DNA of 64,000 bases, from positions 730,798 to 794,797 of the forward strand of contig NZ_JABTEX010000004.1 in NCBI RefSeq assembly GCF_015711645.1. The letters are read 5' to 3'. The translations under genes and the position numbers were made by a program. The DNA comes from Planomonospora sp. ID82291 (lineage in GTDB: Bacteria; Actinomycetota; Actinomycetes; Streptosporangiales; Streptosporangiaceae). Numbering within the stretch: position 1 is the stretch's first letter; every line of letters starts with the position of its first letter. Below are positions 17,413-64,000 of this stretch, piece after piece. Under the pieces are notes generated by a model. It saw nothing but the letters and a program-made list of their open reading frames with translations. It was not told the origin of the DNA and did not search any database.

Positions 17413-17636
17413 GGACGCGCCGGACCGGCGGCCCGCAGTGACAGCACGGCTGCGCGGGCGGACGCGGCCGAGGCCGTCCCGGTGGGGCCGGCCCCGACGC
17501 CGGGAGCGCCGCCGGAGCCGGGCCGTGGCCGTACCGGGGGCATGGGAAAGGGGCCGATCCCCGGACGGCATGGTTTCTGGCCACCCGCCGCTCTACGATC
17601 TTCTTCCTGGGCGCATATCAATGGAGAACGGGAAGA

Positions 17637-28860: not shown

Positions 28861-28929
28861 GCGGTTCGAGCGGGGCTCCCGGCCGGTTGTGCTCAGCAGG
28901 GCTCCGGCGGTGCCGATCGGACGGGTGCG

Positions 28930-42433: not shown

Positions 42434-43578
42434 TGACCAACCCCGTCAAGGACTACGCCTGGGGATCGCGCACCGACATCGCGGGCCTCACCGGACGGCC
42501 CGTGCCCGCCCCCGGCCCGGAGGCGGAGATGTGGCTCGGCGCGCATCCCGCCGGTCCGTCGCTGCTGTCCGGAGACGGGCGCTCGCTGGCCGACGCCATC
42601 GCCGCCGACCCCCTCGGGCACCTGGGCGAGGACACGCTCGCCCGGTTCGGGGCGCGCCTGCCGTACCTGATGAAGCTCATCGCGGTCGCCCGGCCCCTCT
42701 CGCTGCAGGTGCACCCCTCCGCGGAGCAGGCGGCCGACGGCCACGCCCGGGGCGTCTACGGCGACCCCTGGCCCAAGCCGGAGCTGGTGTGCGCGCTCAC
42801 GCCGTTCACCGCGCTGGCCGGGTTCCGCCCTCCGGAGCAGGCCGCGATGCTCGTCGACCGGCTGGGCGTGCCCGCGCTGGCGGAGACCGCGGCGCTGCTG
42901 CGGCGGGGCGCCCCGCTCGACGCCCTGCGCGCCCTGCTGGAAGGCGACCGCGCCACCGGGCGGATCGTCTGGGCGGCCTCCTCGGTGCACCATCCCGACT
43001 ACGCGCTGGTGGTCCGGCTGGCCCGGCAGTACCCCGGCGACCCCGCCTGCCTGGCCCCGCTGCTGCTGCGGCGGCACGAACTCGCCCCCGGGCAGGCGCT
43101 CTTCCTGGGCGCGGGCGTGCTCCACTGCTACCTCACGGGGTTCGGGGTCGAGATCATGGGCAGCTCCGACAACGTCATGCGGGCCGGGCTCACCCCCAAG
43201 CCGCTCGACGTCCCCGAACTGCTGCGCGTCACCGACCCGGCCGCCGCCCCCCTGCCGGTGGCGGCCCGCGACGGCCTGTACGCCACGCCGTCCCCGGAGT
43301 TCCGGCTCCGGCGGCTGACCGGGACGGGGGAGCACCGGCTGGCGGGCGGGACGCCCCGCATCCTGCTGTGCACCGAGGGCACGGCGGAGGCCGGTCCCCT
43401 CCGGCTGGCGGCGGGGGAGTCCGCCTTCGTCCCGGCCGCCGGGGGAAGCGTCACCGTGACCACCGCGGGCACCGTGTTCTGCGCGGAGCCGGGAGCGGGA
43501 CCGGACGCGGGAGCGGGACCGGACGCGGGAGCGGGACCGGACGCGGGAGCGGGACCGCGAGCCGCCGGGCCGTCCTGA
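42424..43578 (+). CDS. manA: Mannose-6-phosphate isomerase, class I
   Basis: A 384-residue type I isomerase. The zinc site residues are visible in KLIAVARPLSLQVHPS (Gln and His), the Glu of PKPELVCAL and the His of GAGVLHCYLTGFGVEIMGSSDNV. It interconverts mannose 6-phosphate and fructose 6-phosphate. The last 25 residues or so are a tandem repeat of DAGAGP caused by an 18-bp DNA repeat. It is co-transcribed with the ROK kinase gene, which it overlaps. Confidence 0.9.
   Translation: MHLMTNPVKDYAWGSRTDIAGLTGRPVPAPGPEAEMWLGAHPAGPSLLSGDGRSLADAIAADPLGHLGEDTLARFGARLPYLMKLIAVARPLSLQVHPSAEQAADGHARGVYGDPWPKPELVCALTPFTALAGFRPPEQAAMLVDRLGVPALAETAALLRRGAPLDALRALLEGDRATGRIVWAASSVHHPDYALVVRLARQYPGDPACLAPLLLRRHELAPGQALFLGAGVLHCYLTGFGVEIMGSSDNVMRAGLTPKPLDVPELLRVTDPAAAPLPVAARDGLYATPSPEFRLRRLTGTGEHRLAGGTPRILLCTEGTAEAGPLRLAAGESAFVPAAGGSVTVTTAGTVFCAEPGAGPDAGAGPDAGAGPDAGAGPRAAGPS
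43491..43558 (+). repeat. 18-bp tandem repeat in the 3' end of manA
   Basis: GAGCGGGACCGGACGCGG recurs three times with a partial fourth, encoding the DAGAGP repeats at the C-terminus of ManA. Confidence 0.9.
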
Positions 43579-47990: not shown

Positions 47991-49799
47991 GGGGGTTCCC
48001 CCAAGGCCGGGTAGTTAAGGCGCTCGTGGCGCTGTCAAGCACGTAAGTTCCTGGGACATGGGAACGGAGATCCAGTAGACAGGTGATCTTCCACAACCAT
48101 CCGTCGAAGGACTGGATCTCCGTTGATCACCGAGTCTGCCAGGACCGTTACCCTCAGCGCTACCGACACAGGCCACTCACCCCGCCCCGCGACCGATGCG
48201 GTATTCGCTCCCGGACACCTGGGCGAGTTAACCACCCTCGCGCCCTTCGAACTCGTCGATGCCATCCTTGACGAGACGCGCACCGTGCAGCGGCGCCTGC
48301 GCGAGCTGCCCTCGTGTGTCGGGGTCTACTTCCTGCTGGCGATGTGCCTGTTCCCCGAGGTCGGCTACCAGCTGGTCTGGCGGAAGATGACCGCAGGACT
48401 GACCGGCCTCGCGGTGGCGATGCCCACCGCCAAAGCCCTGCGCGACCTGCGCCGCAGGGTCGGTAGCGCGCCGATGCGCCGCCTGTTCGAGGTACTGCGC
48501 GGGCCGCTGGCCCAGCCCAGAACTCCGGGAGTGAGGTTCGGGCCCTACCGCACGGTCTCCTTCGACGGCTGCAGCTCCCTGAAAGCTCCCGACACCGATC
48601 GCAACCGGGCCTGGCTCGGTTCCGCCGGCCACGGCGGCTACCCCTTGGTAGAGCTGATGACGCTGGTGGAGACCGGAACCCGCGCCCTGATCGGTGCGAT
48701 CTTCGGTCCCACCAGCCAGGGCGAGACCGGTTACGCCCGGCGCCTGCTGCACCTGCTTCGGCCGGACATGCTGGTGCTGTGGGACAAGGGCTTCGACGGC
48801 AACGACTTCCTCGCCCAGGTGACCGCCACCGGCGCACAGGTGCTGGGCCGCGTGCGCAGCAACCGGAGCACCCCGGTCCTGCTGCACCTGCGCCACGGCA
48901 GCTACCTGACAATGATCGGCACGGTCAAAGTGCGGATCATCGACGCGCAGATCGCTGTGACCTGCGCTGACGGAACCGCCTTCACTGGCTCCTACCGGCT
49001 GGCCACCACCTTGACCGACGCCCGCCGCTACCCGGCCGCCACCCTGACCGGCCTCTACCACCAGCGGTGGGAGCACGAATCGGCGTACTACGCGTTGCGC
49101 CACACCCTCATGAACGGGCGTATCCTGCGCTCCGGCGACCCCGCCGGACTCGAGCAGGAGATGTGGTCGGTCCTCACGCTCTACCAACTGCTGCGCATGG
49201 CGATGGTCGACGCCGCCGAGTCCCGGCCCGGCACCGACCCGGACCGCTGCGCCTTCACCATCGCCCTGCACAGCGCCCGTGACCAGGTGGTCCAAGCCGC
49301 CGGCGTGACCGGTGACGCCGCCGTGCCGGTCGGAGTCATTGCACGTGCCGTCCTGTCCGGGCTCCTTCCGGCCCGCCGCCCACGGGTAAGCACCCGCAAG
49401 GTCAAATCTCCTATCTCCCGCTACAACGAACGGCTCGACGACGGCAGGCCGGACCGCAGCCGTGTCGTCACCGCCCTGGCCATCACCGTCCTGCACCCTC
49501 CCCCCGACCTGCCTGCTGCTTCCCGAGACGAGCGGCCCATCGCCCGGGTCGACCGTCGCAGACAGCACGAGGTCCTCGCCCTGCTCCATCAAGAGCCCGG
49601 CCGGCCCTGGCGGGCTCGCGACATCGCCCGCCATCTCGGCGATGTCACCTTGAACACCATGTATCGGCAGCTGTCCCGATGGGCTGACAACCAACTCATC
49701 CGCAAGATCGGACCTGGTGTCTATGTCGCCGGGCCGGTCTCCCCAGCGCTCTTGCCGACAGCCCAGAAACCTTAACTACCCGGCCTTGGGGGAACCCCC
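47991..49799 (+). mobile_element. IS4-family insertion sequence with perfect 30-bp ends
   Basis: A 1809-bp element bounded by perfect 30-bp inverted repeats (outermost GGGGGTTCCCCC, then AAGGCCGGGTAGTTAAGG). The outermost 12 bp are themselves almost palindromic. No clear target duplication is visible. It sits between an istB fragment and an IS1380 transposase fragment, so it was inserted into older IS debris. An 11-bp inverted repeat (48064-48074 and 48112-48122) forms a hairpin just before the transposase start. Confidence 0.88.
48123..49775 (+). CDS. IS4-family transposase
   Basis: A 550-residue DDE transposase with an N-terminal DUF4372-like region (FELVDAILDETRTVQRRLRELPSCVGVYFLLAMCLF), the first Asp in TVSFDGCSSLKAPDTDRN, the second in LWDKGFDGNDF and the Glu in the YHQRWEHESAYYALRHTL motif, the YREK-like signature of IS4 enzymes. 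A short C-terminal winged-helix-like tail follows. The start is TTG 48123, because no ATG or GTG lies before the conserved region. The start codon abuts a hairpin, which would limit translation. Confidence 0.88.
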   Translation: MITESARTVTLSATDTGHSPRPATDAVFAPGHLGELTTLAPFELVDAILDETRTVQRRLRELPSCVGVYFLLAMCLFPEVGYQLVWRKMTAGLTGLAVAMPTAKALRDLRRRVGSAPMRRLFEVLRGPLAQPRTPGVRFGPYRTVSFDGCSSLKAPDTDRNRAWLGSAGHGGYPLVELMTLVETGTRALIGAIFGPTSQGETGYARRLLHLLRPDMLVLWDKGFDGNDFLAQVTATGAQVLGRVRSNRSTPVLLHLRHGSYLTMIGTVKVRIIDAQIAVTCADGTAFTGSYRLATTLTDARRYPAATLTGLYHQRWEHESAYYALRHTLMNGRILRSGDPAGLEQEMWSVLTLYQLLRMAMVDAAESRPGTDPDRCAFTIALHSARDQVVQAAGVTGDAAVPVGVIARAVLSGLLPARRPRVSTRKVKSPISRYNERLDDGRPDRSRVVTALAITVLHPPPDLPAASRDERPIARVDRRRQHEVLALLHQEPGRPWRARDIARHLGDVTLNTMYRQLSRWADNQLIRKIGPGVYVAGPVSPALLPTAQKP

Positions 49800-50163: not shown

Positions 50164-50658
50164 TCAGGAGGGACGTCCACCCCGTGAGTCATCGAGGTTA
50201 AGCATCTCATCGAAGACATGCATCCATGGTCCTTTTTTGTTGATTGCCCGCGCAGCCGCCTCTGCTATAGGGGGAGAATATGATTTGGGACTTCGCAGTT
50301 TATCGGATTCCATAAGAGTTACAGGCCCAATAATTTTCCCAAATGCATCCTGTATGCATTCGCCTTGCCCTTCAACTGAAACTCTAAATTTAGGAATGAT
50401 TAAATCTGAAGGGCTTGGAAGATTTCCTACGATCTTCCATTTTCCATTCCTAATGAATGTATCCATGGTCTCAAATATGAGAGTTGGAGTGTTTGGGTTA
50501 ATCTTATCCAAGAATGGCTCCGTTAAGTCTGACGCGATATTATGAAATATGGACAGAATAATATTGTGCTGCAGTTTTCTTGCTACCTGTCCAAAGGTAA
50601 AATATTCCTCTTCGATCAATATGGCTAGAATGTCCCCTTCTCTGTATCTAATCAACAA
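50164..50658 (-). CDS. Imm26-family immunity protein
   Basis: A 164-residue protein of AT-rich codon use, quite unlike its neighbours. The N-terminal YREGDILAILIEEEYFTFGQVARKL resembles the Imm26 immunity family (from memory), which protects producer cells from cognate polymorphic toxins. The start is TTG 50658, with an ideal ribosome site AGGAGGTGAT about 6 nt upstream. It overlaps the stop of the toxin-carrying Rhs frame by 7 bp, so toxin and immunity are translationally coupled. Low GC suggests recent transfer of the tip-immunity cassette. Confidence 0.75.
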   Translation of the reverse strand: MLIRYREGDILAILIEEEYFTFGQVARKLQHNIILSIFHNIASDLTEPFLDKINPNTPTLIFETMDTFIRNGKWKIVGNLPSPSDLIIPKFRVSVEGQGECIQDAFGKIIGPVTLMESDKLRSPKSYSPPIAEAAARAINKKGPWMHVFDEMLNLDDSRGGRPS

Positions 50659-53600
50659 ACATCACCTCCTGCATTCTTGTACCTTTTGTCGTTCATTTGT
50701 CGCCTGTCGTTAGATAGGGCGCTTCCGGGATCCTTCCGGGATCCTCCGCCAGCCCTGATCCAGCTTTCCTCAAGCACATCCAGGTCAACACCAGGTTTGG
50801 CGCGCCCTAAGACCTCAAAGGTAAAGAGTGAATTCGGATGCTTCTTAGCGTGCTCTTTCTGTCGCTTTTGGTAGCGTTCCGGGCTCTTCGCTTGACCAAC
50901 GTACTCCTCTCCTGTGATGAGATCGGTGCGTAGATACACAATGCCGTCAGGGCCAGGTGAAGGAGGGGCATTGTGAGCCAGAATGGCCTGGCTTCCGGCG
51001 AGCACATGGTAGGTGTGCGGTCCGTCGACCGTCAGGTTGTGGACACGCTGGCCGGTCGTCCATGTCTTGATCGCGGTGATCTGTACATGGGTGCCGGCCG
51101 AGGTGCGCAGCCACATGCCGGGCTGCAGTTGTCCTGCGGGTACCCATTCGCGGAGCACGGGTACCCAGAAGGGGTGGTTGTCGGTGGCGATGAGGTCGTT
51201 GCCGTCGTCGTGGGCGCCCATGGTGATCTGGACGAGGGTCTTGGTGCCTTCGCTCTCGATCAGTGCGGTGACGGTTCTTGGACCTGTTTGGCCGGTTTCG
51301 GGGTCGGTGGCGATCACTTGGTCGCCGACCTCGACGTCCTCGATCGGCTTTCGTGTCCCATCGGCCATCAGCACCAGGGTGCCGGGGACGAAACTGCTGC
51401 GCTTGCATGCCTTACCGGCGTCGCCTGCCTTGTCGATCAGCTTGCCGATCTTGCCGATCTTGCCGATCGGGACGACACCGGCGCCAGCCATGATGCAGTC
51501 CCACAGGGACGGGTTGGTCACGCAGTTGACCGCGTCACCGATGGTGAGATCGCAGATGAGGATATCGGCGCAGATTTCACCAATACTTGACGGAGGGGGG
51601 TCGTCTCCGCCGGGTTTCTCGGGGCAGCTGTCGGGATCTATCGCGTAACAGGTGATCCCGCCGCCACCGCCGCCGCCACCGCCGCCACCGCTGCTGACGG
51701 GGCCGCCGATCGGGGTTCCTACGTGACCGGTGTAGCTACCGTTACACGGTCCGGTCTGACACTGACGGTCGATTTCTTCCTGTGACGGGCCCGGGTCCTC
51801 AGTGACGCTGATGGGGTCGTTAATGAACGATGGGCTTTTGGGATCGAAACCGGGAACGTAAGGCTTTGACTTCGGCGGCTTCGGCGCCGGGTTATCCGTT
51901 GGATTCGGTCTTCTGTAGTTGTTGCTATTCCGGCATGGGTTAGGTGTGGGAGCGCCGCCGGTCGGTGCTTTATGGGTGGTCCGGGTTGCGCTGCCAGGAG
52001 GGGTTTTAGGCTTTGTAGGTTTCTTTGGGCAGCTAGGATCCTGCGGAGTTTCACAGGGAGGATTCCCCTTGGGGAAATATTTAACGGGATCAGGGGGGCA
52101 AGTTACGGCTTTGCCGTTAGCGTTCCTGCAAGTATCATCCTGTACATGTTCCATGCAGTCCGGATGCCACCAGTCCGACGCGAAAATGCCACACCAACCT
52201 GGCGGTGGCGCATGTCCGCTGGGATCTGTGTGAATGAGTGGGCTGCCGTTGCCGTAGGTGTAGCGGTTGCCTTGGATTGACGGGCTGGGCTCCAGGGTCC
52301 AGTCGTCGCGGGAGGCGAAGCCGCCGGTGCCGGGCTGGTACCAGCGGGCGTGCATGTTGACCTTGCCGGTGTCCGGGTCGGTGTACTCGCCCTGATATCC
52401 CAGGGAGCGCTTGGTTCCGGAAGAGTGGGTGACCTTGCCGAACGGATCGTAGGCACTCGAGTCGACCACGGCGGTGCCGGAGAAGGTGGCGACCACGTCG
52501 CCGTGCCGGTCGCTCATCACGCCGAGGGCGGGGTCGGTGCCTTCTTTCAGGCTGAGCAGGCCGCCGAAGGGGTCGCGGCCGTAGGTGGCGTGCACGGTGC
52601 CGGCGCCGTCGGTGACGGCGGCGATGTCGTTGCTGAGGCCGGAGTAGACGAACCGCTGCTGGGCGTCGGCCTTGACCCGGGAGGTCATCCGGCCCAGGGC
52701 GTCGTAGCCGTAGCTGGTCTCGCCGTCGGTGATGAGCTGGTCGAAGGCGTTGAAGACGAGGTTCTTCGTGGTCCCGTTGGTGGTCTCGGTCGCCAGCGTG
52801 CCGCGGGGGGTGTAGGTGTAGTCGGTGCCCGCGCCGGAGGTCAACCGGTTGCGCTCGTCGTAGACGAACGTCTCGGTCCCGGCTTTGGTGCGGTTGCCGG
52901 CGTCGTCCCAGGCGTAGTCGACGGTCTTGCCGTCGGGGCCGGTCCAGGAGGTCAGGCGTCCGGCGTGGTCGTAGCCGTAGGCGTGGGTGCCGGCGCCGGC
53001 GGTGCCGGAGGTGGTCTTGGTGGTGAGGTTGTCGTCCTTGTCCCACCCGTAGCCGATCTTCGATAGCTCGGTGCCGCCGCTGTTCTTCAGGGTGTGGGAG
53101 GTGAGCCGGTCGACGGCGTCGTAGCCGTAGGACTGGCTGGTGGCGACAGAACCGGTCGAGGTGAGGCTGGTGAGCCGGTCGGCCTTGTCGTAGCCGTAGG
53201 CGAACGTGCTGCCGGTCACCGGGTCGGTGGCGGTCTTCAGGCGGCTGCCGTCGTCCCAGGTGTAGGCGGCGGTACCGGTCGGATCGACGCGCTGGATGGG
53301 GTTGCCGAGGGCGTCGTAGGCGTAGGCGGCGACCTGGGTGCCGGCCTTGGTCAGCTTGGTCAGCAGGCCGCGGTCGTTGTATTCGAGGCCGTAGTCGCCG
53401 ATCGCGGTGGGCCGGTCGGTCGTGTCGTAGGTAACGGTGCGTTCGGGGGTGTCGACGGCGGCGCCGGTGCCGGTCTGCTTGACCATGCGGTTGAGGTGGT
53501 CGAAGGTGCGGTCGATGCGCACGCCGCCGGGCTGCAGGGTGGTGGTGGTGTTGCCGGCCGCGTCGTAGAGGTTGGTCCAGGTGCGGTCGGCGGCGTCCGG

Positions 53601-54785
53601 GTGGGCGGTGGTGGCGGGTTCGGTGACGGATTCGACCAGGCCGAGGCTGTTGTAGGTGGTCCAGGTGGCGTTGCCGCGGCCGTCGGTCAAACGGGTGCGG
53701 GCGCCGGTGGCGTCGTAGCCGAACGTGGTGGTGATCGACTTGTCGGTCGTGACCGGTTCGATCAGCTTCGTCGCCCGTCCGAGGGCGTCGAATTCGCGCC
53801 GGGTGGTGTGGCCTTCGCCGGAGGTGCGGCTGATCGGGTTGCCCGCCGGGTCGTAGCCGAAGCCGATCGTGCGCACGACCGCGCCGGAGGCGTCCAGGTC
53901 TTTTGCGGTGGTCTGACGGCCGGCCAGGTCGTAGGCGGCTTCGGTGGCGTTGCCCAGTGCGTCGGTCACCTTCGCCGGGCGGCCCAGTGCGTCGTAGGCG
54001 AAGGTGGATTTGTTGCGGTTGGGGTCGGTGACCTCGATGAGCTGTCCGGCGGCGTTGACCGTGTAGTCGGTGGTCTTGCTGCCGGGTGCGACGGTCTTGG
54101 TGAGGTTGCCCGCGGTGTCGTAGGTGTAGGCGGTGGTCAGGGCGGCGGTGGTGGGTTTGCGCTCGATCTGCGTCTGGGTGATCATCCGGCCCAGGTCGTC
54201 GTAGGTCGCCGTGGTGCGCCCGCCGGTCGGGTCGGCGGCGGCCAGTCGCTCGCCGAGCAGGTCGTATTCGGAGATCCAGGTGCCGCCCGGTCCGGACGGG
54301 CCGGGATCGGTGATGCGTACCGGGTTGCCGAGGGCGTCGTAGTCGGTGGAGGTGACGAAGCCGCGCGGGTCGGTGACCGTGGTGATGCGGCCGGCCGCGT
54401 CGTAGGCGAGGGTGGTCTTCGACTCGACCGGCGCGGTCTGGGCCGGGGCGCTCGCCGCGGCGGCCGGGGCGGCGGTGGCCAGGGCGCGGACCTGCTCACC
54501 GGTCAGGGCCTTGGCGTAGGCGCGGACCTCGTCCAGGGTGCCGCGGAAGGAGTGCTGGTAGGCGCCGGCGAGCTTGCTGCGGCCGATCAGGAATCCGCCG
54601 CCGGCGTTCCAGGTGCTGGTGTAGTCGCCCTCGGCGACGAGTTCCCCGTCCTCGTACAGGCGGAGTTTGCGAGCCTGCGCGTCGTAGACGCCGGTCAGGT
54701 GCGTCCAGGTGTTGAGCTTGGCGGTCCGGGAGGAGATGGCCTTGGTGTCGGTCGAGCCGGTGGTGTCGCTGGTGTAGGCGACCAT
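50652..54785 (-). CDS. 5'-truncated Rhs/YD-repeat protein with HINT and GIY-YIG-like toxin tip
   Basis: The frame from ATG 54785 gives 1377 residues but this ATG lies inside a LamG-like domain. There is no signal peptide, and homology to the rightward Rhs gene begins abruptly at 54814. In order: partial LamG (1-95), YD repeats and Rhs core (about 115-855, ending DPSGH), a variable Pro/Gly/Cys linker with a (G)n run, a HINT domain (1130-1273, SSFVPGTLVLMADGTRKPIE to AILAHNA), and a 104-residue tip with VYLRTDLITGEEYVGQ resembling GIY-YIG nucleases. It has no own promoter or secretion signal, so it is probably a silent orphan tip module, with its immunity gene behind it. Confidence 0.8.
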   Translation of the reverse strand: MVAYTSDTTGSTDTKAISSRTAKLNTWTHLTGVYDAQARKLRLYEDGELVAEGDYTSTWNAGGGFLIGRSKLAGAYQHSFRGTLDEVRAYAKALTGEQVRALATAAPAAAASAPAQTAPVESKTTLAYDAAGRITTVTDPRGFVTSTDYDALGNPVRITDPGPSGPGGTWISEYDLLGERLAAADPTGGRTTATYDDLGRMITQTQIERKPTTAALTTAYTYDTAGNLTKTVAPGSKTTDYTVNAAGQLIEVTDPNRNKSTFAYDALGRPAKVTDALGNATEAAYDLAGRQTTAKDLDASGAVVRTIGFGYDPAGNPISRTSGEGHTTRREFDALGRATKLIEPVTTDKSITTTFGYDATGARTRLTDGRGNATWTTYNSLGLVESVTEPATTAHPDAADRTWTNLYDAAGNTTTTLQPGGVRIDRTFDHLNRMVKQTGTGAAVDTPERTVTYDTTDRPTAIGDYGLEYNDRGLLTKLTKAGTQVAAYAYDALGNPIQRVDPTGTAAYTWDDGSRLKTATDPVTGSTFAYGYDKADRLTSLTSTGSVATSQSYGYDAVDRLTSHTLKNSGGTELSKIGYGWDKDDNLTTKTTSGTAGAGTHAYGYDHAGRLTSWTGPDGKTVDYAWDDAGNRTKAGTETFVYDERNRLTSGAGTDYTYTPRGTLATETTNGTTKNLVFNAFDQLITDGETSYGYDALGRMTSRVKADAQQRFVYSGLSNDIAAVTDGAGTVHATYGRDPFGGLLSLKEGTDPALGVMSDRHGDVVATFSGTAVVDSSAYDPFGKVTHSSGTKRSLGYQGEYTDPDTGKVNMHARWYQPGTGGFASRDDWTLEPSPSIQGNRYTYGNGSPLIHTDPSGHAPPPGWCGIFASDWWHPDCMEHVQDDTCRNANGKAVTCPPDPVKYFPKGNPPCETPQDPSCPKKPTKPKTPPGSATRTTHKAPTGGAPTPNPCRNSNNYRRPNPTDNPAPKPPKSKPYVPGFDPKSPSFINDPISVTEDPGPSQEEIDRQCQTGPCNGSYTGHVGTPIGGPVSSGGGGGGGGGGGITCYAIDPDSCPEKPGGDDPPPSSIGEICADILICDLTIGDAVNCVTNPSLWDCIMAGAGVVPIGKIGKIGKLIDKAGDAGKACKRSSFVPGTLVLMADGTRKPIEDVEVGDQVIATDPETGQTGPRTVTALIESEGTKTLVQITMGAHDDGNDLIATDNHPFWVPVLREWVPAGQLQPGMWLRTSAGTHVQITAIKTWTTGQRVHNLTVDGPHTYHVLAGSQAILAHNAPPSPGPDGIVYLRTDLITGEEYVGQAKSPERYQKRQKEHAKKHPNSLFTFEVLGRAKPGVDLDVLEESWIRAGGGSRKDPGSALSNDRRQMNDKRYKNAGGDVC

Positions 54786-54814
54786 CCGCCATTTCTTGTC
54801 CCCGGAGGAGTACT
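52213..54814 (-). repeat. Rhs core, inverted copy (left arm)
   Basis: This segment encodes the same LamG-YD repeat-core order as 60906-63514 on the other strand. The lengths are nearly equal (2602 and 2609 bp). By eye about four in five residues are identical, with runs of identical DNA of 25-30 bp. Confidence 0.85.
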
Positions 54815-54921
54815 CTCCACACCCGGGCGGCCGCCGTTCAGGGGCGCTCCTTCCGCCGGACCCGGCTTCCTGGTAACGGCGGGGCCACCTTCACCGCCGG
54901 CGTCCGCGGGATAATCGTCCG

Positions 54922-55839
54922 ATGGACGATCTCGCGGGTTTCCTGCGCACCCGCCGCTCCCGGGTCGACCCGGCCGGAGCAGGCATCCCGGTCGACGGCC
55001 GCCGCCGGGTCCAGGGGCTGCGCCGCGAAGAGGTCGCGCACCTGTCCGGGGTGAGCGTCGACTACTACATCCGCCTGGAGCAGGGCCGCGCCACGCAGCC
55101 CTCGGAGCAGGTGCTCGACGCGCTCGCGCGGGTCCTCGGGCTCGACGACACCGAACGCGGGCACCTGTACCGGCTGGCCCGGCAGCGGCGCCGGAAGGCG
55201 AAGTCGCCCACCGGGCGGCTGCGCCCGGAACCGCTGCGGGTCCTGGGACTGATCACCGACGCGCCCGCGCTCATCGTCGACCACCGCCTCGACGCCGCCG
55301 CCGGCAACCGCCTCGCCGAGCTGCTGTACGGCCGCCCCGTCAAAGGCCTGAACACGGCCCGGCACATCTTCCTGGAGGAGGCCGAGCGCGGCCTGTACGC
55401 CGACTGGGAGCAGTGCACCCTCGACGTGGTCGGGCACCTGCGCCTGGCGGCCGGCAAGTATCCCGAGGATCCGCGGCTGGCCTCGTTGATAGGGGAGCTG
55501 GCGATGGGCAGCGAGCGCTTCCGGCGCCTGTGGGCCCGCGCGGACGTGCGCGCGCGGACGCACGGGCGCAAGGCGTACCGGCATCCCCTGGTCGGGGAAC
55601 TGGAACTGCATCAGGAGAACTTCACGCTGCCGGATGGATCAGGCATGGAGCTGCTGGTGCTCTCGGCGGCCCCCGGCAGCCCTTCCGCGGACGCCCTGCG
55701 GCTCCTGGCCGGCCTGGACGCCGGCGGCGAGGTGTTGCCTGAGGGTGAGGCGGTATCGGGCATCGCCGAGGGGGGCGCGGGCCGGGTCGACGACGGGGGC
55801 AGGAGCAATCGTCAATACCCGTGGATCAAGACCTTCTAG
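54922..55839 (+). CDS. XRE-family regulator with MmyB-like ligand domain
   Basis: A 305-residue protein. Residues 5-75 form a helix-turn-helix (RVQGLRREEVAHLSGVSVDYYIRLEQGR) and about 100-260 an MmyB-like ligand-binding domain (APALIVDHRLDAAAGNRLAELLYG). The last 45 residues or so (GEVLPEGEAV to PWIKTF) do not fit the family, and the frame runs into an IS256 remnant, so the C-terminus is probably altered. It lies between the two Rhs genes, within the segment that could invert. A regulatory role for them is possible but unproven. Confidence 0.85.
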   Translation: MDDLAGFLRTRRSRVDPAGAGIPVDGRRRVQGLRREEVAHLSGVSVDYYIRLEQGRATQPSEQVLDALARVLGLDDTERGHLYRLARQRRRKAKSPTGRLRPEPLRVLGLITDAPALIVDHRLDAAAGNRLAELLYGRPVKGLNTARHIFLEEAERGLYADWEQCTLDVVGHLRLAAGKYPEDPRLASLIGELAMGSERFRRLWARADVRARTHGRKAYRHPLVGELELHQENFTLPDGSGMELLVLSAAPGSPSADALRLLAGLDAGGEVLPEGEAVSGIAEGGAGRVDDGGRSNRQYPWIKTF

Positions 55840-55849
55840 GCTGCCGCGG

Positions 55850-56077
55850 ATGAGGGCCGCTCGCCGGGCGGGGGAACTGCCCCAGCGCCGGGACGACGTC
55901 GTCGGAGGACAGGCCGTGCAGGTACAGCAGCGGCAGAACCTCGGCTGCCTCCCCAGCCGACGTTGGCGCGTCGCCCGTGTGGCTGAGGTGGTCGAGTAGG
56001 CGCGGCCGTTCAGGGCCCAGGGCCGCGGCATCGGGTGGATCGCCGCCAAGACCGGCGTTCCTGAGACCTCCCTGCAC
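55850..56077 (-). pseudogene. Fragment of an IS256-family transposase
   Basis: The leftward frame reads AEVLPLLYLHGLSSDDVVPAL, a conserved stretch of IS256/mutator-type transposases. The catalytic domain and the flanks of the element are missing. It overlaps the altered 3' end of the XRE gene. Confidence 0.65.
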
Positions 56078-56380
56078 CCTGCCCGGCTCTCACGCCGGCC
56101 TGCTGCGGCCTGTCGGCCGGGAACTGGCTTGCCGGGTTGCCCCGTCTTCGCCGGCGGCCTGCCTCGAACGGGAAAGATGATCTTTCCGATTTGACCACTT
56201 TCCGTTCTTTATCTGCTACTTATGTGGATCTTGCATACGAACGCGGTGAATGTGTAGCTTGTGATCGTTTGCTTGCTGATCACTCTGAACCGCTGATCCC
56301 GGCCTCCGCCGGAGGGACCGACGGGGTGGGGTAGCGACGGCGCAGGCCGTCGCGCTGGCTGGTTCGGAGGGTGACGGCGT
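56078..56380. promoter_or_regulatory. Upstream region of the large Rhs gene
   Basis: This gap is AT-richer than its surroundings at 56178-56280 and contains the perfect palindrome GGAAAGAT-G-ATCTTTCC (56171-56187), followed by a second CTTTCCG. A promoter for the Rhs gene is likely here. I see no gene. Confidence 0.45.
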
Positions 56381-59300
56381 ATGCGTCGCAGTCTGTCGTG
56401 GTCGCGTTCGGCTGCCCGCAGGGCTTACGTGACGGCGGCACTCGCCGTGGTGATAGCCCCGGGCTTGCTGACACTGCAGGCCACCCCCGTGACCGCTGCC
56501 ATCCAACCGGCCGCAGCCAACCCCGGCAGCTTGACGCTTCCCGTCCAGCTGAGCGGTTCGGCGGCCGGTCTGCCGTCCCTGGTGCCGACCAAGGCCACCA
56601 CGGCGTCGGCGGTGCTGCCGGCACCAGCCCTGACCGCGCCTCGGATCACGGGCGCGCTGCAAGTGGAGAAACGCTCCTTTTCAGTCACACGACAGAGCGC
56701 GTCCGTAGCAGGCCTGCAGCAGGTACAGCGGGAGGGCACCGTCGCACGGTCGGCGGCGACCGTGTGGTGCGATGACTACCCGTTCTGGGATTCCACCAAG
56801 CGCTACAGCTACGGCGACATGGTCCGCTGGGGCTCAGAGCTGTGGAAGGTGACGGGCTTCAACAGCCAGGTCGGCTCGCCGCCCGACTGGGACCGCTCCT
56901 GGACCAGCCAGGGCGCGTGCTCGTTCCACCAGTCCCCATCGGTGAGCCTCATTCTTCCGGCCGACGACATGCTGCTGGAGACGCGCACCCCGATGCTGGA
57001 GGCCTACGGCACCAGCAACGACTCCTACACCATCCCGGTCACCTACAGCTTCACCATCTGTGACACCGAGGCGATGAGCGGGAGCGGCTGCACCTCCTCG
57101 GGGACGAGCGCCAGCAGGTTCTGGAAGGTCCCGGCCGGAAAGCTGGCCTGGAGCAAGCAGTACTGGTGGGCGGTGACCGTCACCGATACCGGCAACGGCA
57201 TGAAGACGACGTCGGCCAAGCGTTCCCTGACCACCGGGGTGCGCCAGCCGGTGATCGGCTCGCAGCTGGCCTCCGGTGGTGTGGGCGGCCAGGAAGTCAA
57301 CCCGCTGGTGGGCAACTACACCACCGCCGCCACCGACCTGTCGGTCGCGGCTGCGGGCCCACCCCTGTCGGTGACGCGTTCCTACAACAGCATGGACGCC
57401 CGTACCGACGGGATCTTCGGCGCGGGCTGGTCGACCCGCTGGGACATGCGGCTCGTGCGTGAGGTGCGCGGGGACCTGGTCACCGCGCTGATCACCTACC
57501 CGGACGGACGCCGGGTGCGGTTCGCCGCCAACGGCGACGGCAGCTTCCAGCCGCCGCCGGGCATGTACGCCACCCTCGCCGAACAGACCGGCGGCGGCTG
57601 GCGGCTGATGGACAAATCCGCCACCTCGTACCTCTTCGATGCGCTGGGCCGGGTCACGAAGATCACCGACGCGCACGGCCGTGCCCAGGACCTCGTCTAC
57701 AACACCGACGGCAAGCTGGAGAAGGTGACCGCGACCGGGGGCCGGTCGCTGACGTTCACCTGGAACGGCGCGCACGTGGCCAGCGTGTCCAGCGACCCGG
57801 TCGACGGCAAGGCCATCACCTGGACCTACCACTACGAGGGCGACCGGCTGACCGGCGTGTGCGCGCCGGTCACCGCCCCCAACTGCACCCGGTACGCCTA
57901 CGACAGCGGCTCGCAGTACCGCGGCCTCGTCCAGGACGCCGAACCGTACGGGTACTGGCGGCTGGGTGAAGCGTCCGGCTCGGTCGCAGCCGATCTCGGC
58001 TCCGGTGCCGGTCCCGCCTCTTACGAGGGCCGCAGCACGGGCGACAACGTCGCCTACGGCAAGCCCGGCGCGCTGGCCGCCAGCCCCGACACCGCGGTGG
58101 AGCTGACCGGCTCGGTGGTGAACCTGCCGGATTATGCGCTGGCGAACCTGGGCGAGCACGCCTCGGTGGAGCTGTGGTTCAAGACCGCCGCCTCCGGCAC
58201 GCTGCTGGCGGCCTCGGTAAGCGCCGGCGGTCTGCGCGACAAGCCGATGCTGTATGTCGGTACCGACGGCAAGCTGTACGGCTCCTACGGAGCGTCCGCC
58301 ACGCCGATGGCCTCGGCAGCCGCGGTCACCGACAACGCCTGGCACCACGTGACCCTGACCATCGCCGGACAGGCGCAGGCGTTGTACTTGGACGGCAAGC
58401 AGATCGGCACGCTGAGCCAGAAAGTCGACACCTGGCGCCCGTACGCCGAGGTCGGCCACGGCCTGATCACCCGCGGTTCGGCACCGGGCCTGCCGACCGG
58501 CACCGGCACCCAGGAGTTCGGTTTCCGCGGCCAACTCGACGAGCTCGCGATCTACGGCAAGCCGCTCACGGCCGCCGAAGTCGGCTCCCACTACGCCGCG
58601 CGGGCCGAGGCGCCGCACAAGATGACGACGGTCACCCTGCCCTCCGGCCGGGTGAACACGACCGTCGCCTACGACTCCGGCACCGAGCGCGTCACCGCCT
58701 ACACCGACGCCCACGGCGGCACCTGGAAACTCGCCGCGCCGCAGTATGACGCGGAGACGGGCAAGTCGACGGTGACGGTCACCGACCCCGACACCGGCAC
58801 CCTGACCTTCGTGCACGACGCCTGGCGCGGGGACCGGCTGGTGGCGCAGACCGACCAGCTCGGCAAGACCACCGCATTCGACTACGACACCGCCGGCTTC
58901 CTGGCCAAGACCACCGACCGCAACGGCAACACCATCAAGCAGGTCAACGACGCGCGCGGCAACGTCACCGCGATCACCACCTGCCGCACCTCCGGTAGCT
59001 GCCAGACCCGCAGACAGTCGTTCCACCTCAACAAAGACGATCCGTTCGACCCCCGCAACGACCGGGTGACCGCCAGCCGGGACGCGCGCTCGTCCAGCGC
59101 GACCGACAACACCTACGCCACCACCTTCGACTACACCGCCAAGGGCGATACGGCGAAGGTGACCAGTTCGGCGACGCCGGACTTCCCCGACGGCCGCTCG
59201 GCGACCGCAACCTACACCGACGGCAGCGAGCCCGCCGTCGGCGGCGGAACCACGCCGGCCGGTCTGGTGAAGTCGAGCAAGAACCCCAAGGGCCAGGAGA

Positions 59301-62300
59301 GCACCTACCGCTACACCGCGGCCGGGGACCTGGCCGAGGAGACCACCCGATCCGGCCTGAAGATCACCTACGAGTGGGACGCGCTGGGCCGGCTGCTGGC
59401 CCGTACCGAGGTCTCGGCCGCCCACCCGGACGGGGTGACCGCTCGGGTCACCTACGACGGTGCGGGCCGGATACTGACCGGCACCGCACCCGGGGTGAAG
59501 AACGAGATCACTGGAAAGACCCACACCGTCCGCACGGTCCACGCCTACGACGCCGACGGCAACCAGACGAGCGAGACGGTCACCGACCTGACCGGCGGCG
59601 ATGCCGAGCGCACCACCAGCTACACCTACGACGCCCGCGGCCGCGTCGAGACGGTCACCGGCCCCGACGGAGCCGTGTCCCGCACCACCTGGAACCACAC
59701 CGGCGCCCAGACCAGCGTCACCGACCCGCTGGGCACCGTCACCGCCATGGCCTACACCAAGCGCGGCGAGCTGGCCTCGCGCACGCTGAAGAACTGGACC
59801 GGCAGTCCCGTCAACCCGCAAGCACCCAAGGACGTGGTGCTGGAGTCCTTCGCCTACGACCCCGAGGGCCGCCTGGCCACCCGGGCCGACGCGATGGGCC
59901 GCACCACCGCCTACACCTACTTCGGCGACAACCTGCCCTCCCAGGTCATCGCCAAGAGCGCCCGGCTCAACGGCTCGACCACGCCCGCCGACGTGGTGCT
60001 GCAGGCCAGCACCTACGACGCGGCCGGTAACCTGACCAAGCAGGTCACCGGCGGCGGCAAGACCACCGTCGCATCCGTCTACGACGCGGCCGGCCGCCTG
60101 ACCTCGACCACGCTGGATCCCGGCGGCCTGGCGCGCACCACCACCTACGCCTACGACGCGGCCGGCAACGTGGTCAAGAAGACCTCCACCGGCGCGGGCG
60201 GCGGCCCGGCCGCAACGGTCGCATACGGCTACGACACCGCCGACCGAATGGTCCGCCAAAGCGTCGGCAACGGCGATACCGACCTGGTCTCCACCTGGCG
60301 CTACGACGAGCGGGGGCTGCTGGTCAAGCAGACCGACCCGCGAGGCAACGCCTCCGGCGCGGACGCCGAAGCGTTCACCACGGCGATCCGCTACGACGCG
60401 CTGGGCCGGCTGGTGGAGGCCACCGCGCCGAAGGTGGCGATCGAGGAGAACGGCTCGGCCGCCGACGGCCGGCCGACCACGAAGTACGGCTACAACAGCA
60501 TGGGCCTGGCCACGCAGGTCGTCGACGCTGAAGACCGGCTGACCACCTCGGTCTTCGACAAGGCCGGGCGGCTGACCACCACGATCCGCGGCGGCGCCAC
60601 CGCGACCGATCCGCCCGGCCCGGGCGTCCCGGCCGGGTACTGGGCGATGGACGAGGGCTCCGGTACCACGCTGGCCGACGGCTCCGGAGGCAACCGCACC
60701 GCCACCGCCACCGGTGCGATCACCTGGGGCGAGGGTAAGCACGGCAAGGCCGTCACCTTCGGCCCCGGCACGCACGCGCTCACCGCCGCTCCGGTGCTGC
60801 GCACCGATGAGAGCTACACGGTCTCGGCGTGGGCCTACCTGACCGCGGACGAGCACTCGGCCGTCATCAGCCAGGACGGGGCGGTCAACAGCGGCTTCAA
60901 GCTGCAGTACTCCCCCGGCGACAAGAAATGGCGGATGGTCGCCTACACCGCCGACACCGCCGGCTCCACCGACACCAAGGCCATCTCCTCCCGGGCGGCC
61001 AAGCTCAACACCTGGACGCACCTGACCGGCGTCTACGACGCCGCCGCCCGCAAGATCCGCCTGTACGAGGACGGCGAACTCGTCGCCGAGAACGACTACA
61101 CCAGCACCTGGAACGCCGGCGGCGGCCTGCTGATCGGCCGCAGCAAGCTCAGCGGCGCCTACCAGCACTCCTTCCGGGGCACCCTGGACGAGGTCCGCGC
61201 CTACGCCAAGGCCCTGACGGCTGAGGAGGTCCGCGCCCTGGCCACGGGCACCCCGGCCGCCGCCCCGGCCGCCGCGGCGAGCGACCCGGCCACCGCGCCG
61301 GCCGAGTCGAAGACCACCCTCGCCTACGATGCGGCCGGCCGCATCACCAAGATCACCGACCCGCGCGGTTATGCCACCACGGTCGAATACGACGCCCTGG
61401 GCAATCCGGTGCGCAGCACCCTGCCGGGCGCTTCCGGACCGGCAGGGGTGTCGATCGCCGAGTACGACATGCTCGGTGAGCAGCTCGCGACGGTCGACCC
61501 GACCGGCGCGCGCACCGAGGCGACCTACGACGATCTGGGCCGGGCCATCACCCGCACGCAGATCGAGCGCAAACCCACCACGACCGCGCTGACCACCACC
61601 CTCGTCTACGACACCGCGGGCAACCTGATCAAGGTGGTCGCGCCCGGCAACAAGACCACCGACTACACGGTCAACGCCGCAGGGCAGGTCACCGCAGTCA
61701 CCGACCCCAACGACAACACCTCCACCACCGCCTACGACGGCCTCGGCCGGGCGATCAAGAGCACCGACGCCCTGGGCAACGCGGTCGAGGCCGTCTACGA
61801 CGCGGCCGGCCGGCAGACCGCGGCCAAGGATCTGGACGCCTCCGGGAACGTGGTGCGCACGTTCGGGTTCGGCTACGACGCGGTCGGCAATCCGGTCCGC
61901 ACCACCTCCGCCGAAGGGCACGATACCCGCCGCGAGTTCGACGCCCTCGGACGTTTGACGAAGCTGATCGAGCCGGTCGCGGCCGACAAGGCGATCACCA
62001 CGACGTTCGGCTACGACGCGGCCGGCGCCCGGACCCGGCTGACCGACGGGCGCGGCCACGCCACCTGGACCGCCTACAACGGCCTCGGCCTGGTCGCATC
62101 CGTCACCGAACCGGCCACCACCGCTCACCCGGACGCCGGCGACCGCACCTGGACCCACACCTATGACGCGGCCGGCAACCCCGTCTCCACCCTGCTGCCC
62201 GGCGGGGTGCGCATCGACCGCGTCTTCGACCCCTTCGGGCAGGTGACCAAGCAGACCGGCGCCGGCGCCGCCGTCGCCCCCCCCGAACGGAACCTCACCT

Positions 62301-64000
62301 ACGATGCGGCGGGTCGGCCGACCGCGATCGGCGACTACGGCCTGGAGTACAACGACCGCGGACTGCTGGTCAGGGTCACCAAGGCCGGCAGCCAGGTCGC
62401 CGCCTACGCCTACGACGCCCTGGGCAACCCGACCCAGCGCGTGGACGGCACCGGCACCGCGGCGTTCACCTGGGACGACGGCAGCCGCCTGAAGACCGCC
62501 ACCGACCCGGTGACCGGCCGCACCCTGACCTACGGCTACGACAAGGCCGACCGGCTCACCAGCCAGAGCGCCGCGGGCCCGGCCACCGTCCAGAGCTACG
62601 GCTACGACGCCCTGGACCGGCTGACCTCGCACACGCTGACCGGCAGCGGCGGCACCGAGCTGTCGAAGATCGCCTACGGGTGGGACAAGGACGACAACCT
62701 CACCACCAAGACCACCTCCGGCACCGCCGCAGCCGGCGCCAACACCTACGGCTACGACCACGCCGGGCGCCTGACCTCCTGGACCGCCCCCGATGGCAAG
62801 ACCGTCGACTACGGCTGGGACGAGGCGGGCAACCGCACCAAGGCCGACGACAAGACGTTCGCCTACGACGAGCGTAACCGGCTGACCTCCGGCGCCGGCA
62901 TCGACTACACCTACACCCCCCGCGGCACCGTGGCGAGTGAGACCACCGGCGGGAAGACGAAGAACCTGGTCTTCGACGCGTTCGACCGCATGATTTCCGA
63001 CGGCGAGGCCACCTACGGCTACGACGCCCTGGATCGGATGACGTCGCGCACCAAGGGCGCCGACCAGCAGAAGTTCACCTACTCCGGCCTCAGCAACGAC
63101 CTCGCCACCGTCACCGACGGCACCGGCGCCGTCCGGGCCAAGTACGGCCGCGACCCGTTCGGCGACCTGGTCAGCCTGTCCGAAGGCGGTGATCCCGCGC
63201 TGGGGGTGATGAGCGACCTGCACGGCGACGTGGTGGCGACCTTCTCCGGGACCGCGCTCGCCGACTCGGTGGCCTACGACCCGTTCGGGCAGGTCATCCA
63301 GCGCACCGGCATCAAGCGGTCGGTTGGCTATCAGGGTGAGTACACCGATCCCGACAGCGGCAAGGTCAACATGCACGCCCGCTGGTACCAGCCGGGCACC
63401 GGCGGCTTCGCCTCCCGCGACAGCGCCACGCTGGCACCGGACCCGTCCGTGCAGGCCAACCGCTACACCTACGGCAACGCCGGCCCGCTGACCAACATCG
63501 ACCCCAGCGGCCACGAGGCGATCCAGACCGGCGGCACCACCAGCGCCGGAGGCAGCGGCGGAAGCGGTTGGTCCTCCGGCGGCAACGTCATCGACTTCAG
63601 CGCCTACTACGACCGGCAGCGCATCGGCTGGGACACGCCCATCGTCCCGTGCAGCGGCCAGGGATGCCTGTATACCTGGCACCAGCCCGGCGGTGACCCG
63701 GTGTTCACCGGCACCAGCGATGAAGAGCGCGCGTGGTGGGAGGAGCGCTACGGGGACTTAGCGTGGGCGCCCCAGTTCAAAGACGCGGATGCCAAGAAGT
63801 GGAACCTGCTGCCCAACGGCAGGCCCCGGCCGAAAGGCATCAGCGAAGACGAGTTCTGGGGCGCATCAGAGGAAACCCGCCAAAAGTTCCTGGTGATGTA
63901 CAACGTGAAGCAGATGTACAGCGCCGACGTGACCGACGCGGATATCACCGCCTACTGGCGCAAGATCAACCCCCCGCAGTACCACCTCCCCGCAGGAGGT
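56381..64000 (+). CDS. Secreted Rhs/YD-repeat polymorphic toxin, 3' end beyond the window
   Basis: An open frame of 2540 codons with no stop before the window end. In order: a signal peptide (MRRSLSWSRSAARRAYVTAA, cleavage after about residue 50), a chitin-binding-like Trp-rich domain (about 125-175), a DUF6531-like entry (AAAGPPLSVTRSYNSMDARTDGIFGAGW at about 325), YD repeats, a LamG domain (about 525-745), more YD repeats, a second LamG (about 1400-1625), and the Rhs core ending in DPSGH at 63514. From there a new tip sequence starts. It would be exported and the C-terminal tip released into competitors. The start is ATG 56381. The toxin type cannot be seen. Confidence 0.85.
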   Translation, partial: MRRSLSWSRSAARRAYVTAALAVVIAPGLLTLQATPVTAAIQPAAANPGSLTLPVQLSGSAAGLPSLVPTKATTASAVLPAPALTAPRITGALQVEKRSFSVTRQSASVAGLQQVQREGTVARSAATVWCDDYPFWDSTKRYSYGDMVRWGSELWKVTGFNSQVGSPPDWDRSWTSQGACSFHQSPSVSLILPADDMLLETRTPMLEAYGTSNDSYTIPVTYSFTICDTEAMSGSGCTSSGTSASRFWKVPAGKLAWSKQYWWAVTVTDTGNGMKTTSAKRSLTTGVRQPVIGSQLASGGVGGQEVNPLVGNYTTAATDLSVAAAGPPLSVTRSYNSMDARTDGIFGAGWSTRWDMRLVREVRGDLVTALITYPDGRRVRFAANGDGSFQPPPGMYATLAEQTGGGWRLMDKSATSYLFDALGRVTKITDAHGRAQDLVYNTDGKLEKVTATGGRSLTFTWNGAHVASVSSDPVDGKAITWTYHYEGDRLTGVCAPVTAPNCTRYAYDSGSQYRGLVQDAEPYGYWRLGEASGSVAADLGSGAGPASYEGRSTGDNVAYGKPGALAASPDTAVELTGSVVNLPDYALANLGEHASVELWFKTAASGTLLAASVSAGGLRDKPMLYVGTDGKLYGSYGASATPMASAAAVTDNAWHHVTLTIAGQAQALYLDGKQIGTLSQKVDTWRPYAEVGHGLITRGSAPGLPTGTGTQEFGFRGQLDELAIYGKPLTAAEVGSHYAARAEAPHKMTTVTLPSGRVNTTVAYDSGTERVTAYTDAHGGTWKLAAPQYDAETGKSTVTVTDPDTGTLTFVHDAWRGDRLVAQTDQLGKTTAFDYDTAGFLAKTTDRNGNTIKQVNDARGNVTAITTCRTSGSCQTRRQSFHLNKDDPFDPRNDRVTASRDARSSSATDNTYATTFDYTAKGDTAKVTSSATPDFPDGRSATATYTDGSEPAVGGGTTPAGLVKSSKNPKGQESTYRYTAAGDLAEETTRSGLKITYEWDALGRLLARTEVSAAHPDGVTARVTYDGAGRILTGTAPGVKNEITGKTHTVRTVHAYDADGNQTSETVTDLTGGDAERTTSYTYDARGRVETVTGPDGAVSRTTWNHTGAQTSVTDPLGTVTAMAYTKRGELASRTLKNWTGSPVNPQAPKDVVLESFAYDPEGRLATRADAMGRTTAYTYFGDNLPSQVIAKSARLNGSTTPADVVLQASTYDAAGNLTKQVTGGGKTTVASVYDAAGRLTSTTLDPGGLARTTTYAYDAAGNVVKKTSTGAGGGPAATVAYGYDTADRMVRQSVGNGDTDLVSTWRYDERGLLVKQTDPRGNASGADAEAFTTAIRYDALGRLVEATAPKVAIEENGSAADGRPTTKYGYNSMGLATQVVDAEDRLTTSVFDKAGRLTTTIRGGATATDPPGPGVPAGYWAMDEGSGTTLADGSGGNRTATATGAITWGEGKHGKAVTFGPGTHALTAAPVLRTDESYTVSAWAYLTADEHSAVISQDGAVNSGFKLQYSPGDKKWRMVAYTADTAGSTDTKAISSRAAKLNTWTHLTGVYDAAARKIRLYEDGELVAENDYTSTWNAGGGLLIGRSKLSGAYQHSFRGTLDEVRAYAKALTAEEVRALATGTPAAAPAAAASDPATAPAESKTTLAYDAAGRITKITDPRGYATTVEYDALGNPVRSTLPGASGPAGVSIAEYDMLGEQLATVDPTGARTEATYDDLGRAITRTQIERKPTTTALTTTLVYDTAGNLIKVVAPGNKTTDYTVNAAGQVTAVTDPNDNTSTTAYDGLGRAIKSTDALGNAVEAVYDAAGRQTAAKDLDASGNVVRTFGFGYDAVGNPVRTTSAEGHDTRREFDALGRLTKLIEPVAADKAITTTFGYDAAGARTRLTDGRGHATWTAYNGLGLVASVTEPATTAHPDAGDRTWTHTYDAAGNPVSTLLPGGVRIDRVFDPFGQVTKQTGAGAAVAPPERNLTYDAAGRPTAIGDYGLEYNDRGLLVRVTKAGSQVAAYAYDALGNPTQRVDGTGTAAFTWDDGSRLKTATDPVTGRTLTYGYDKADRLTSQSAAGPATVQSYGYDALDRLTSHTLTGSGGTELSKIAYGWDKDDNLTTKTTSGTAAAGANTYGYDHAGRLTSWTAPDGKTVDYGWDEAGNRTKADDKTFAYDERNRLTSGAGIDYTYTPRGTVASETTGGKTKNLVFDAFDRMISDGEATYGYDALDRMTSRTKGADQQKFTYSGLSNDLATVTDGTGAVRAKYGRDPFGDLVSLSEGGDPALGVMSDLHGDVVATFSGTALADSVAYDPFGQVIQRTGIKRSVGYQGEYTDPDSGKVNMHARWYQPGTGGFASRDSATLAPDPSVQANRYTYGNAGPLTNIDPSGHEAIQTGGTTSAGGSGGSGWSSGGNVIDFSAYYDRQRIGWDTPIVPCSGQGCLYTWHQPGGDPVFTGTSDEERAWWEERYGDLAWAPQFKDADAKKWNLLPNGRPRPKGISEDEFWGASEETRQKFLVMYNVKQMYSADVTDADITAYWRKINPPQYHLPAGG
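60906..63514 (+). repeat. Rhs core, direct copy (right arm)
   Basis: The counterpart of 52213-54814 in inverted orientation. Homology starts at AGTACTCC (60906) and ends at the codons for DPSGH, exactly where Rhs tips normally diverge. Confidence 0.85.

Follow-up and report, generated by a model that had tools for sequence, protein, structure and literature searches.

Mirror-image Rhs genes around an insertion sequence-rich loop in Planomonospora sp. ID82291: a probable substrate for inversion and exchange of toxin tips

The stretch of DNA analysed here, referred to as the window, comprises the last 64,000 bp of contig C10 in the draft genome of Planomonospora sp. ID82291 (7.58 Mb in 15 contigs). 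Base 64000 of the window is the end of the contig (C10 position 794797). The right-hand part of the window contains two Rhs genes in opposite orientation, a long gene (R) and a gene fragment (O). A reversed copy of R, designated R', is located outside the window on contig C4, and a third Rhs gene is present at C10:660990-669293. All analyses of the O/R and R/R' pairs were based on the assembly of this single strain. R, O, the copy on C4 and the third gene are all recognisable as Rhs genes by their RHS/YD repeats and Rhs_assc_core domain. Among named relatives, the most similar Rhs cores were found in Streptosporangiaceae, foremost in Planomonospora and Planobispora. The features of R and of contig C4 are as follows.

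56164..56380, plus strand: leader of the complete Rhs gene, 217 bp
56381..64000, plus strand: Rhs gene R (delivery half, core and linker); frame open to the contig end, tip cut off
56441..64000, plus strand: R arm of the R/R' inverted repeat, equal to C4 18692-11133 reversed (7560 bp, 100%)
60906..63514, plus strand: right core arm of the O/R inverted pair (gapped alignment 60906-63486; ungapped blocks within 60906-63513)
63515..64000, plus strand: post-core linker common to both tips, 486 bp; from the following base on the tips differ
63902..64000, plus strand: assembly overlap with the start of C4 (tip 1 side), 99 bp
C4 1-717, plus strand: tip 1, open and in frame after the common linker, bearing an HExxH motif
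C4 699-1655, plus strand: open reading frame (ORF) overlapping the end of tip 1; FtsX_ECD (Pfam)
C4 100-11132, orientation arbitrary in the assembly: loop between R and R', rich in insertion sequences (IS), approximately 11 kb, outside the window
C4 9106-9981, reversed: ORF overlapping the end of tip 2; no Pfam match
C4 9966-11132, reversed: tip 2 (PT-HINT and Ntox21, the latter with E 1.3e-21), in frame after the common linker
C4 11133-18692, reversed: R', matching window 56441-64000 in reverse (7560 bp, 100%)

A first-pass annotation of the window had described a secreted N-terminal half with core and a toxin tip, tip B, reading right from 56381. The rightward Rhs frame is indeed present and open to the end of the window, and its N-terminus is hydrophobic (judged by eye only). 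No tip B is present, however, because C10 ends directly after the linker and the tips start at the next base, on C4. Contig C4 (18,692 bp) starts with the 99-bp end of C10 and continues in frame into tip 1. This tip and its neighbouring gene are followed by transposase genes of several IS types and then, on the opposite strand, by a gene without Pfam match, tip 2 and the reversed copy of R. At base 64000 the same linker thus leads into two different tips. Since the assembler met two continuations at this base, the question which tip follows R is the question of the orientation of the C4 loop. The first-pass annotation missed the R/R' pair because the copy lies outside the window.

The two tips differ. 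Tip 2 carries Ntox21, which is listed as a demonstrated tRNase (PMC3482391). Tip 1 had no Pfam match. It could be aligned with its relatives (5 sequences, four of them from Rhs loci L058, L059, L107 and L109), showing a conserved HExxH motif, a conserved cysteine and a distal glutamate. None of the three members of this family that were searched had a Pfam match, and the fold of one relative of tip 1 gave no significant match in the PDB. Neither of the genes following tips 1 and 2 belongs to a known immunity family: in Pfam, the first matched FtsX_ECD and the second had no match. The FtsX-domain gene perhaps encodes a membrane-anchored immunity protein. In the third Rhs gene, the tip carries Endonuclea_NS_2 (E 3e-18) and is adjoined by a SUKH_6 immunity gene. 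Known toxin domains were recognised at tip 2 and at the third locus, and known immunity genes at the third locus and at O (Imm26, see below).

The copy on C4 breaks off at the equivalent of window position 56441, and the missing start of the gene is probably on contig C15. The leader of R has three matches in the genome: its own position (100%), C10:660775-660989 upstream of the third Rhs gene (93%) and C15:1-146 (97%), whereas there is none at O. This number equals that of the long Rhs genes (R, the third locus and the copy on C4). The first 146 bases of C15, read outward, are 97% identical over 56164-56309 and fully identical to window 56179-56309 (131 bp). Because this third leader is a spare one without a gene, C15 likely carries the start of R'. 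Beyond the leader, C15 did not match the part of the window upstream of the R leader. C15 would thus represent the upstream side of R', giving the order C10 - R - tip 1 - loop - tip 2 - R' - C15. Other genera likewise have this leader conserved ahead of their Rhs genes (79% identity over 218 columns in locus L054, for example).

In this arrangement, R and R' lie tail to tail around the loop and form a better substrate for inversion than O and R. RecA needs far less than 7.56 kb of perfect homology. We consider it probable that recombination between R and R' would flip the 11-kb loop and thereby swap the toxin tips, with O recombining with R rarely if at all. RecA-type recombination between the arms would invert C4 100-11132 and exchange the tips between two genes, both presumably complete and in use. 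Because both delivery halves are alike, a flip would silence no toxin: in either orientation, each tip would be in frame behind a delivery half and the arsenal would be unchanged. What would change is the upstream neighbourhood of each tip, which would be either an MmyB-type regulator (upstream of R) or a serine recombinase (upstream of R'). The likely lasting effect would be that R and R' are kept alike while their tips differ. Such trading of tips between two likely complete genes differs from the switching on and off of an orphan tip that was pictured in the first-pass annotation.

Several observations weigh against this interpretation. A repeat of 7,560 bp is beyond the reach of the presumed short-read assembly graph; differences between the copies may have been merged into the 100% identity, and the loop was placed in an arbitrary orientation. 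No inversion was observed, and no read or strain showed both orientations. C15 is linked by way of its leader, with 131 bp missing from the assembly between C4 and C15. In addition, markers on both sides (window 42424-43578 and C15 22346-23851) were neighbours in 0 of the 12 relatives that hold both (25 searched); in 11 they were on one contig at a distance of at least 0.47 Mb and in 1 on different contigs. As the flanking markers are far apart in all 12, the C10-C15 junction is not ancestral, and conserved synteny was rejected as support for the join. The junction reflects either a rearrangement (through the Rhs copies) or a wrong join. Finally, no other near-identical inverted pair was present in the 42 genomes of the family that are assembled in few contigs.

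These 42 genomes come from a survey of neighbouring Rhs pairs. From 250 genomes of the family, 197 contained an Rhs core end; 42 of these, all listed fully, were in at most 10 contigs. A pair was defined as neighbours within 30 kb. Among 34 of the genomes (139 core ends) there were 5 direct, 2 convergent and 1 divergent pairs. The remaining 8 (37 matches) contained 25 direct and 0 inverted pairs (hand count; one pair consists of two pieces of one frame), and all 25 were located in four same-direction fragment arrays of genomes G017 and G029. The earlier statement that orphan tips usually have direct orientation is thus borne out for Rhs neighbours in these genomes (30 of 33 pairs), inverted pairs accounting for 3/33 pairs or 3/12 clusters. 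The cores of the inverted pairs were approximately 71% alike in G171 and G242, and without significant inverted match in G094. Among 78 named Rhs loci with at most 10 kb of flanking sequence, many of which were cut by contig ends, none had an inverted second core end and two had a same-direction neighbour. Such surveys are biased against near-identical inverted pairs, because short-read assemblies tend to break there. It is the combination of near-identical arms and different tips that stands out in Planomonospora sp. ID82291. The probability given here to the proposed flipping of the loop does not depend on the rarity of inverted pairs, because the proposal is grounded in the R/R' copy itself.

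Two other arrangements were seen in this survey. On contig C1 of G171 (L130/L131) a 1,420-bp inverted repeat (99.4%; 17115-18530 and 28598-30015 of the joined stretch) flanks the second gene of a convergent Rhs pair: one copy lies between the two genes, the other at the start of the second gene or past it. On C1 and C3 of G017 and on C1 of G029, Rhs core fragments form long arrays that all read in one direction, with up to 12 core ends in approximately 11.5 kb (G017 C3). The arrays of G017 and G029 resemble the arrays of displaced tips described for Enterobacteriaceae (PMC2935791).

An unlikely, though serious, alternative is that the cluster is static: R and R' would have arisen by a recent inverted duplication and differ in their tips, O would be a dead fragment, and no flipping would occur at a relevant rate. 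This agrees with the failure to see orientation variants. The inverted neighbours in G171, G242 and G094 show that pairs can drift apart without exchange. However, the arms of R and R' are perfect over 7.56 kb, and the segment between them would not hold one orientation if recombination in this strain is normal.

It is also quite improbable that the R/R' repeat is an assembly artefact, with a single R through which C4 has been wrongly extended. The two tips would then be alternatives at one gene, or one of them would belong elsewhere. The contig-end overlaps (99 bp at C1, C2, C3 and C10/C4; 81 bp at C5) point to a short-read graph assembly, in which a re-used graph edge would give an identity of 100%. 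No contig bridges the end of C4 and C15, and relatives show no synteny between the C10 side and the C15 side. Two gene copies, on the other hand, explain both the presence of two different tips in frame after the same linker and the spare, gene-less Rhs leader on C15.

In a bolder reading, the locus is an inverton comparable to those of phage tail tips, but built from Rhs genes. In the G loop of phage Mu, one constant part is joined to alternative C-terminal tips at opposite ends of the loop by inversion at short sites recognised by the invertase Gin. The locus studied here likewise has alternative C-terminal tips that face in opposite directions at the ends of a loop behind a constant part. 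Where Mu has one constant part, it has two, each of 7.56 kb, and the recombinase beside R' is no more than a candidate. The reading would imply that the loop flips between two complete delivery genes, that both orientations are present in one culture, that the Gin-like recombinase beside R' takes part, that toxins move between differently regulated sites and that O can feed in a third tip; taken together we regard this as improbable.

The candidate is the first gene of C15 (365-1249; L029), which starts 0.2 kb past the leader and is transcribed in the direction leading away from R'. It encodes a serine recombinase with DNA-invertase 4m6f as its best match in the PDB (E 1.4e-19) and an N-terminal phage-type zinc-binding domain; the genome has 7 resolvase-domain matches, this gene included. 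No homologue was found in the 78 named Rhs loci at E 1e-20. Of 40 homologues from 34 genomes, compared where their contig had a listed core end, the nearest lay at a distance of 33,456 bp from such an end. A role as constant partner of Rhs genes was therefore rejected, as the homologues are not linked to Rhs in relatives, and the recombinase is a lead only. A recombinase site at the tip junction was also considered, since a 17-bp palindrome terminates there, but found little support: the length of the palindrome is odd, unlike the two-base core of invertase sites, and hairpins with 6-bp arms are common locally (4.9 per kb).

The first-pass annotation had proposed a different switch, between O and R. 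The features on that side of R are as follows.

47991..49799, plus strand: IS4-type insertion sequence adjoining O, with 30-bp perfect inverted ends; transposase at 48123-49775
50164..50658, minus strand: immunity gene of tip A, ORF with Pfam Imm26 (E 3.9e-08)
50652..54785, minus strand: orphan Rhs gene O (core fragment, PT-HINT and tip A), ORF of 1377 aa that begins within the core; Pfam RHS_repeat, PT-HINT and Laminin_G_3
52213..54814, minus strand: left (orphan) core arm of the O/R inverted pair (gapped alignment 52240-54814; ungapped blocks extend to 52213)
54922..55839, plus strand: MmyB-like helix-turn-helix regulator between O and R; HTH_31 and MLTR_LBD (Pfam)

From left to right, the order is thus IS4-type element, Imm26 gene, O (leftward), MmyB-like regulator, Rhs leader and R. 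The earlier description of a truncated, leftward Rhs core with a HINT domain and an immunity gene is correct. O (RHS_repeat 226.5 bits, Rhs_assc_core 67.6 bits) consists of a piece of core, a tip and an immunity gene and lacks both the N-terminal half and the leader, as expected of an orphan rhs-CT. It is located upstream of R in the opposite direction, however, and not downstream in the same direction. The GIY-YIG-like nature that had been ascribed to tip A was not confirmed. The PT-HINT domain is recognised by Pfam, but the end of the tip had no Pfam match, GIY-YIG included, and the low-confidence structure model (predicted local distance difference test, pLDDT, 57.8) had I-TevI as its top fold match with an E value of 0.23, which gives weak support at best.

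Nucleotide alignment showed that the inverted cores are real copies. The core of O (52240-54814) is 84.7% identical to that of R (60906-63486) over 2596 columns (gapped alignment, inverted), with three ungapped inverted blocks (I1-I3) of 84-91% identity within 52213-54814 and 60906-63513. The identical runs had been put at 25-30 bp, which is too low: there are 16 runs of at least 25 bp, ranging from 25 to 56 bp, the longest being 56 and 52 bp. A crossover would keep the reading frame, because the codon phase is equal at all 2569 of the 2569 positions compared. The flip of 54815-60905 that had been proposed, after which tip A would follow the secreted half, is therefore permitted by geometry and frame. 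There is little sign, however, that such exchange has occurred. In a tree of Rhs cores (83 rows; two G242 cores with approximately 26% identity were excluded by the cut), R grouped with a gene of Planomonospora parontospora (97% by Shimodaira-Hasegawa-like approximate likelihood ratio test, SH-aLRT), then with the third copy (80%) and only then with O (97% for all four). Since O is placed outside this group, R and O have not been homogenised recently.

A mosaic test among O, R and the third copy (L) gave a significant runs test (p 0.0008). When the three site classes were all used, two stretches were detected, one R-like at 52638-52599 (p 0.04) and one in which only O differs at 54355-54306 (p 0.01); with R/L sites only, no single segment was significant (p 0.29 and 0.23). 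The signal is weak and hints at some mosaicism. Tip A would need a crossover between these 84.7% identical cores to gain a delivery half. Although the inverted, in-phase cores and the mosaic signal speak in its favour, a tip-switching O/R pair is very unlikely given the identity of only 84.7%, the closer relationship of R to the P. parontospora gene than to O and the lack of a significant segment at R/L sites. O has probably been displaced as an orphan, and its recombination with R is probably rare or absent.

Orphan tips of this kind are known from other bacteria. In Salmonella LT2, the orphan rhs-CT is likewise a core fragment with tip and immunity gene but without a start, and recombination with the main gene would yield a deployable fusion (PMC3967940). 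The model proposed there is duplication followed by crossover over 522 bp at 95% identity, whereas the best 522-bp stretch of O and R is 90.2% identical. In contrast to the downstream orphan in LT2, O is upstream, inverted and 84.7% identical, and no recombinant is known. In the C-terminal displacement arrays of Enterobacteriaceae (PMC2935791), cores and tips are decoupled as well and orphan core-tip pieces are found near a complete gene; high core identity was considered necessary. These arrays are strings of fragments downstream of the gene, for which circles were proposed, whereas the genes described here are mirror images around a loop. The recA-dependent crossovers between rhsA and rhsB of E. 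coli K-12 (PMC2935791) are comparable in that rearrangement occurs via long similar Rhs cores. There, the segment between the copies was duplicated, while the inverted copies in ID82291 would flip it.

Some other observations on the assembly were made. Contigs C1, C2, C3 and C5 (120, 37.6, 24.2 and 17.8 kb) look circular, their own ends overlapping by 99, 99, 99 and 81 bp, respectively. Contig C6 (16,895 bp; L020, L035) has similar GC-rich sequence at both ends in inverted orientation, telomere-like as in a linear plasmid (by eye). The end of C11 (L039) consists of a tandem GC-rich repeat of approximately 38 bp that matches the start of C7 (L021). An Rfam scan of the window at gathering thresholds gave zero matches.

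The locus is a variant of known Rhs tip shuffling. Change of tips within a genome has been described for same-direction orphan arrays in enterobacteria (PMC3967940, PMC2935791), and in the titles and abstract openings that were searched no description of mirror-image Rhs pairs was found. If our interpretation is correct, a mirror-image pair would allow tips to be exchanged with all toxins and immunity genes retained, and might account for the lasting similarity of paralogous delivery halves. Loops of this kind may go unseen where short-read contigs end at an Rhs tip, and toxin repertoires may consequently be misassembled.

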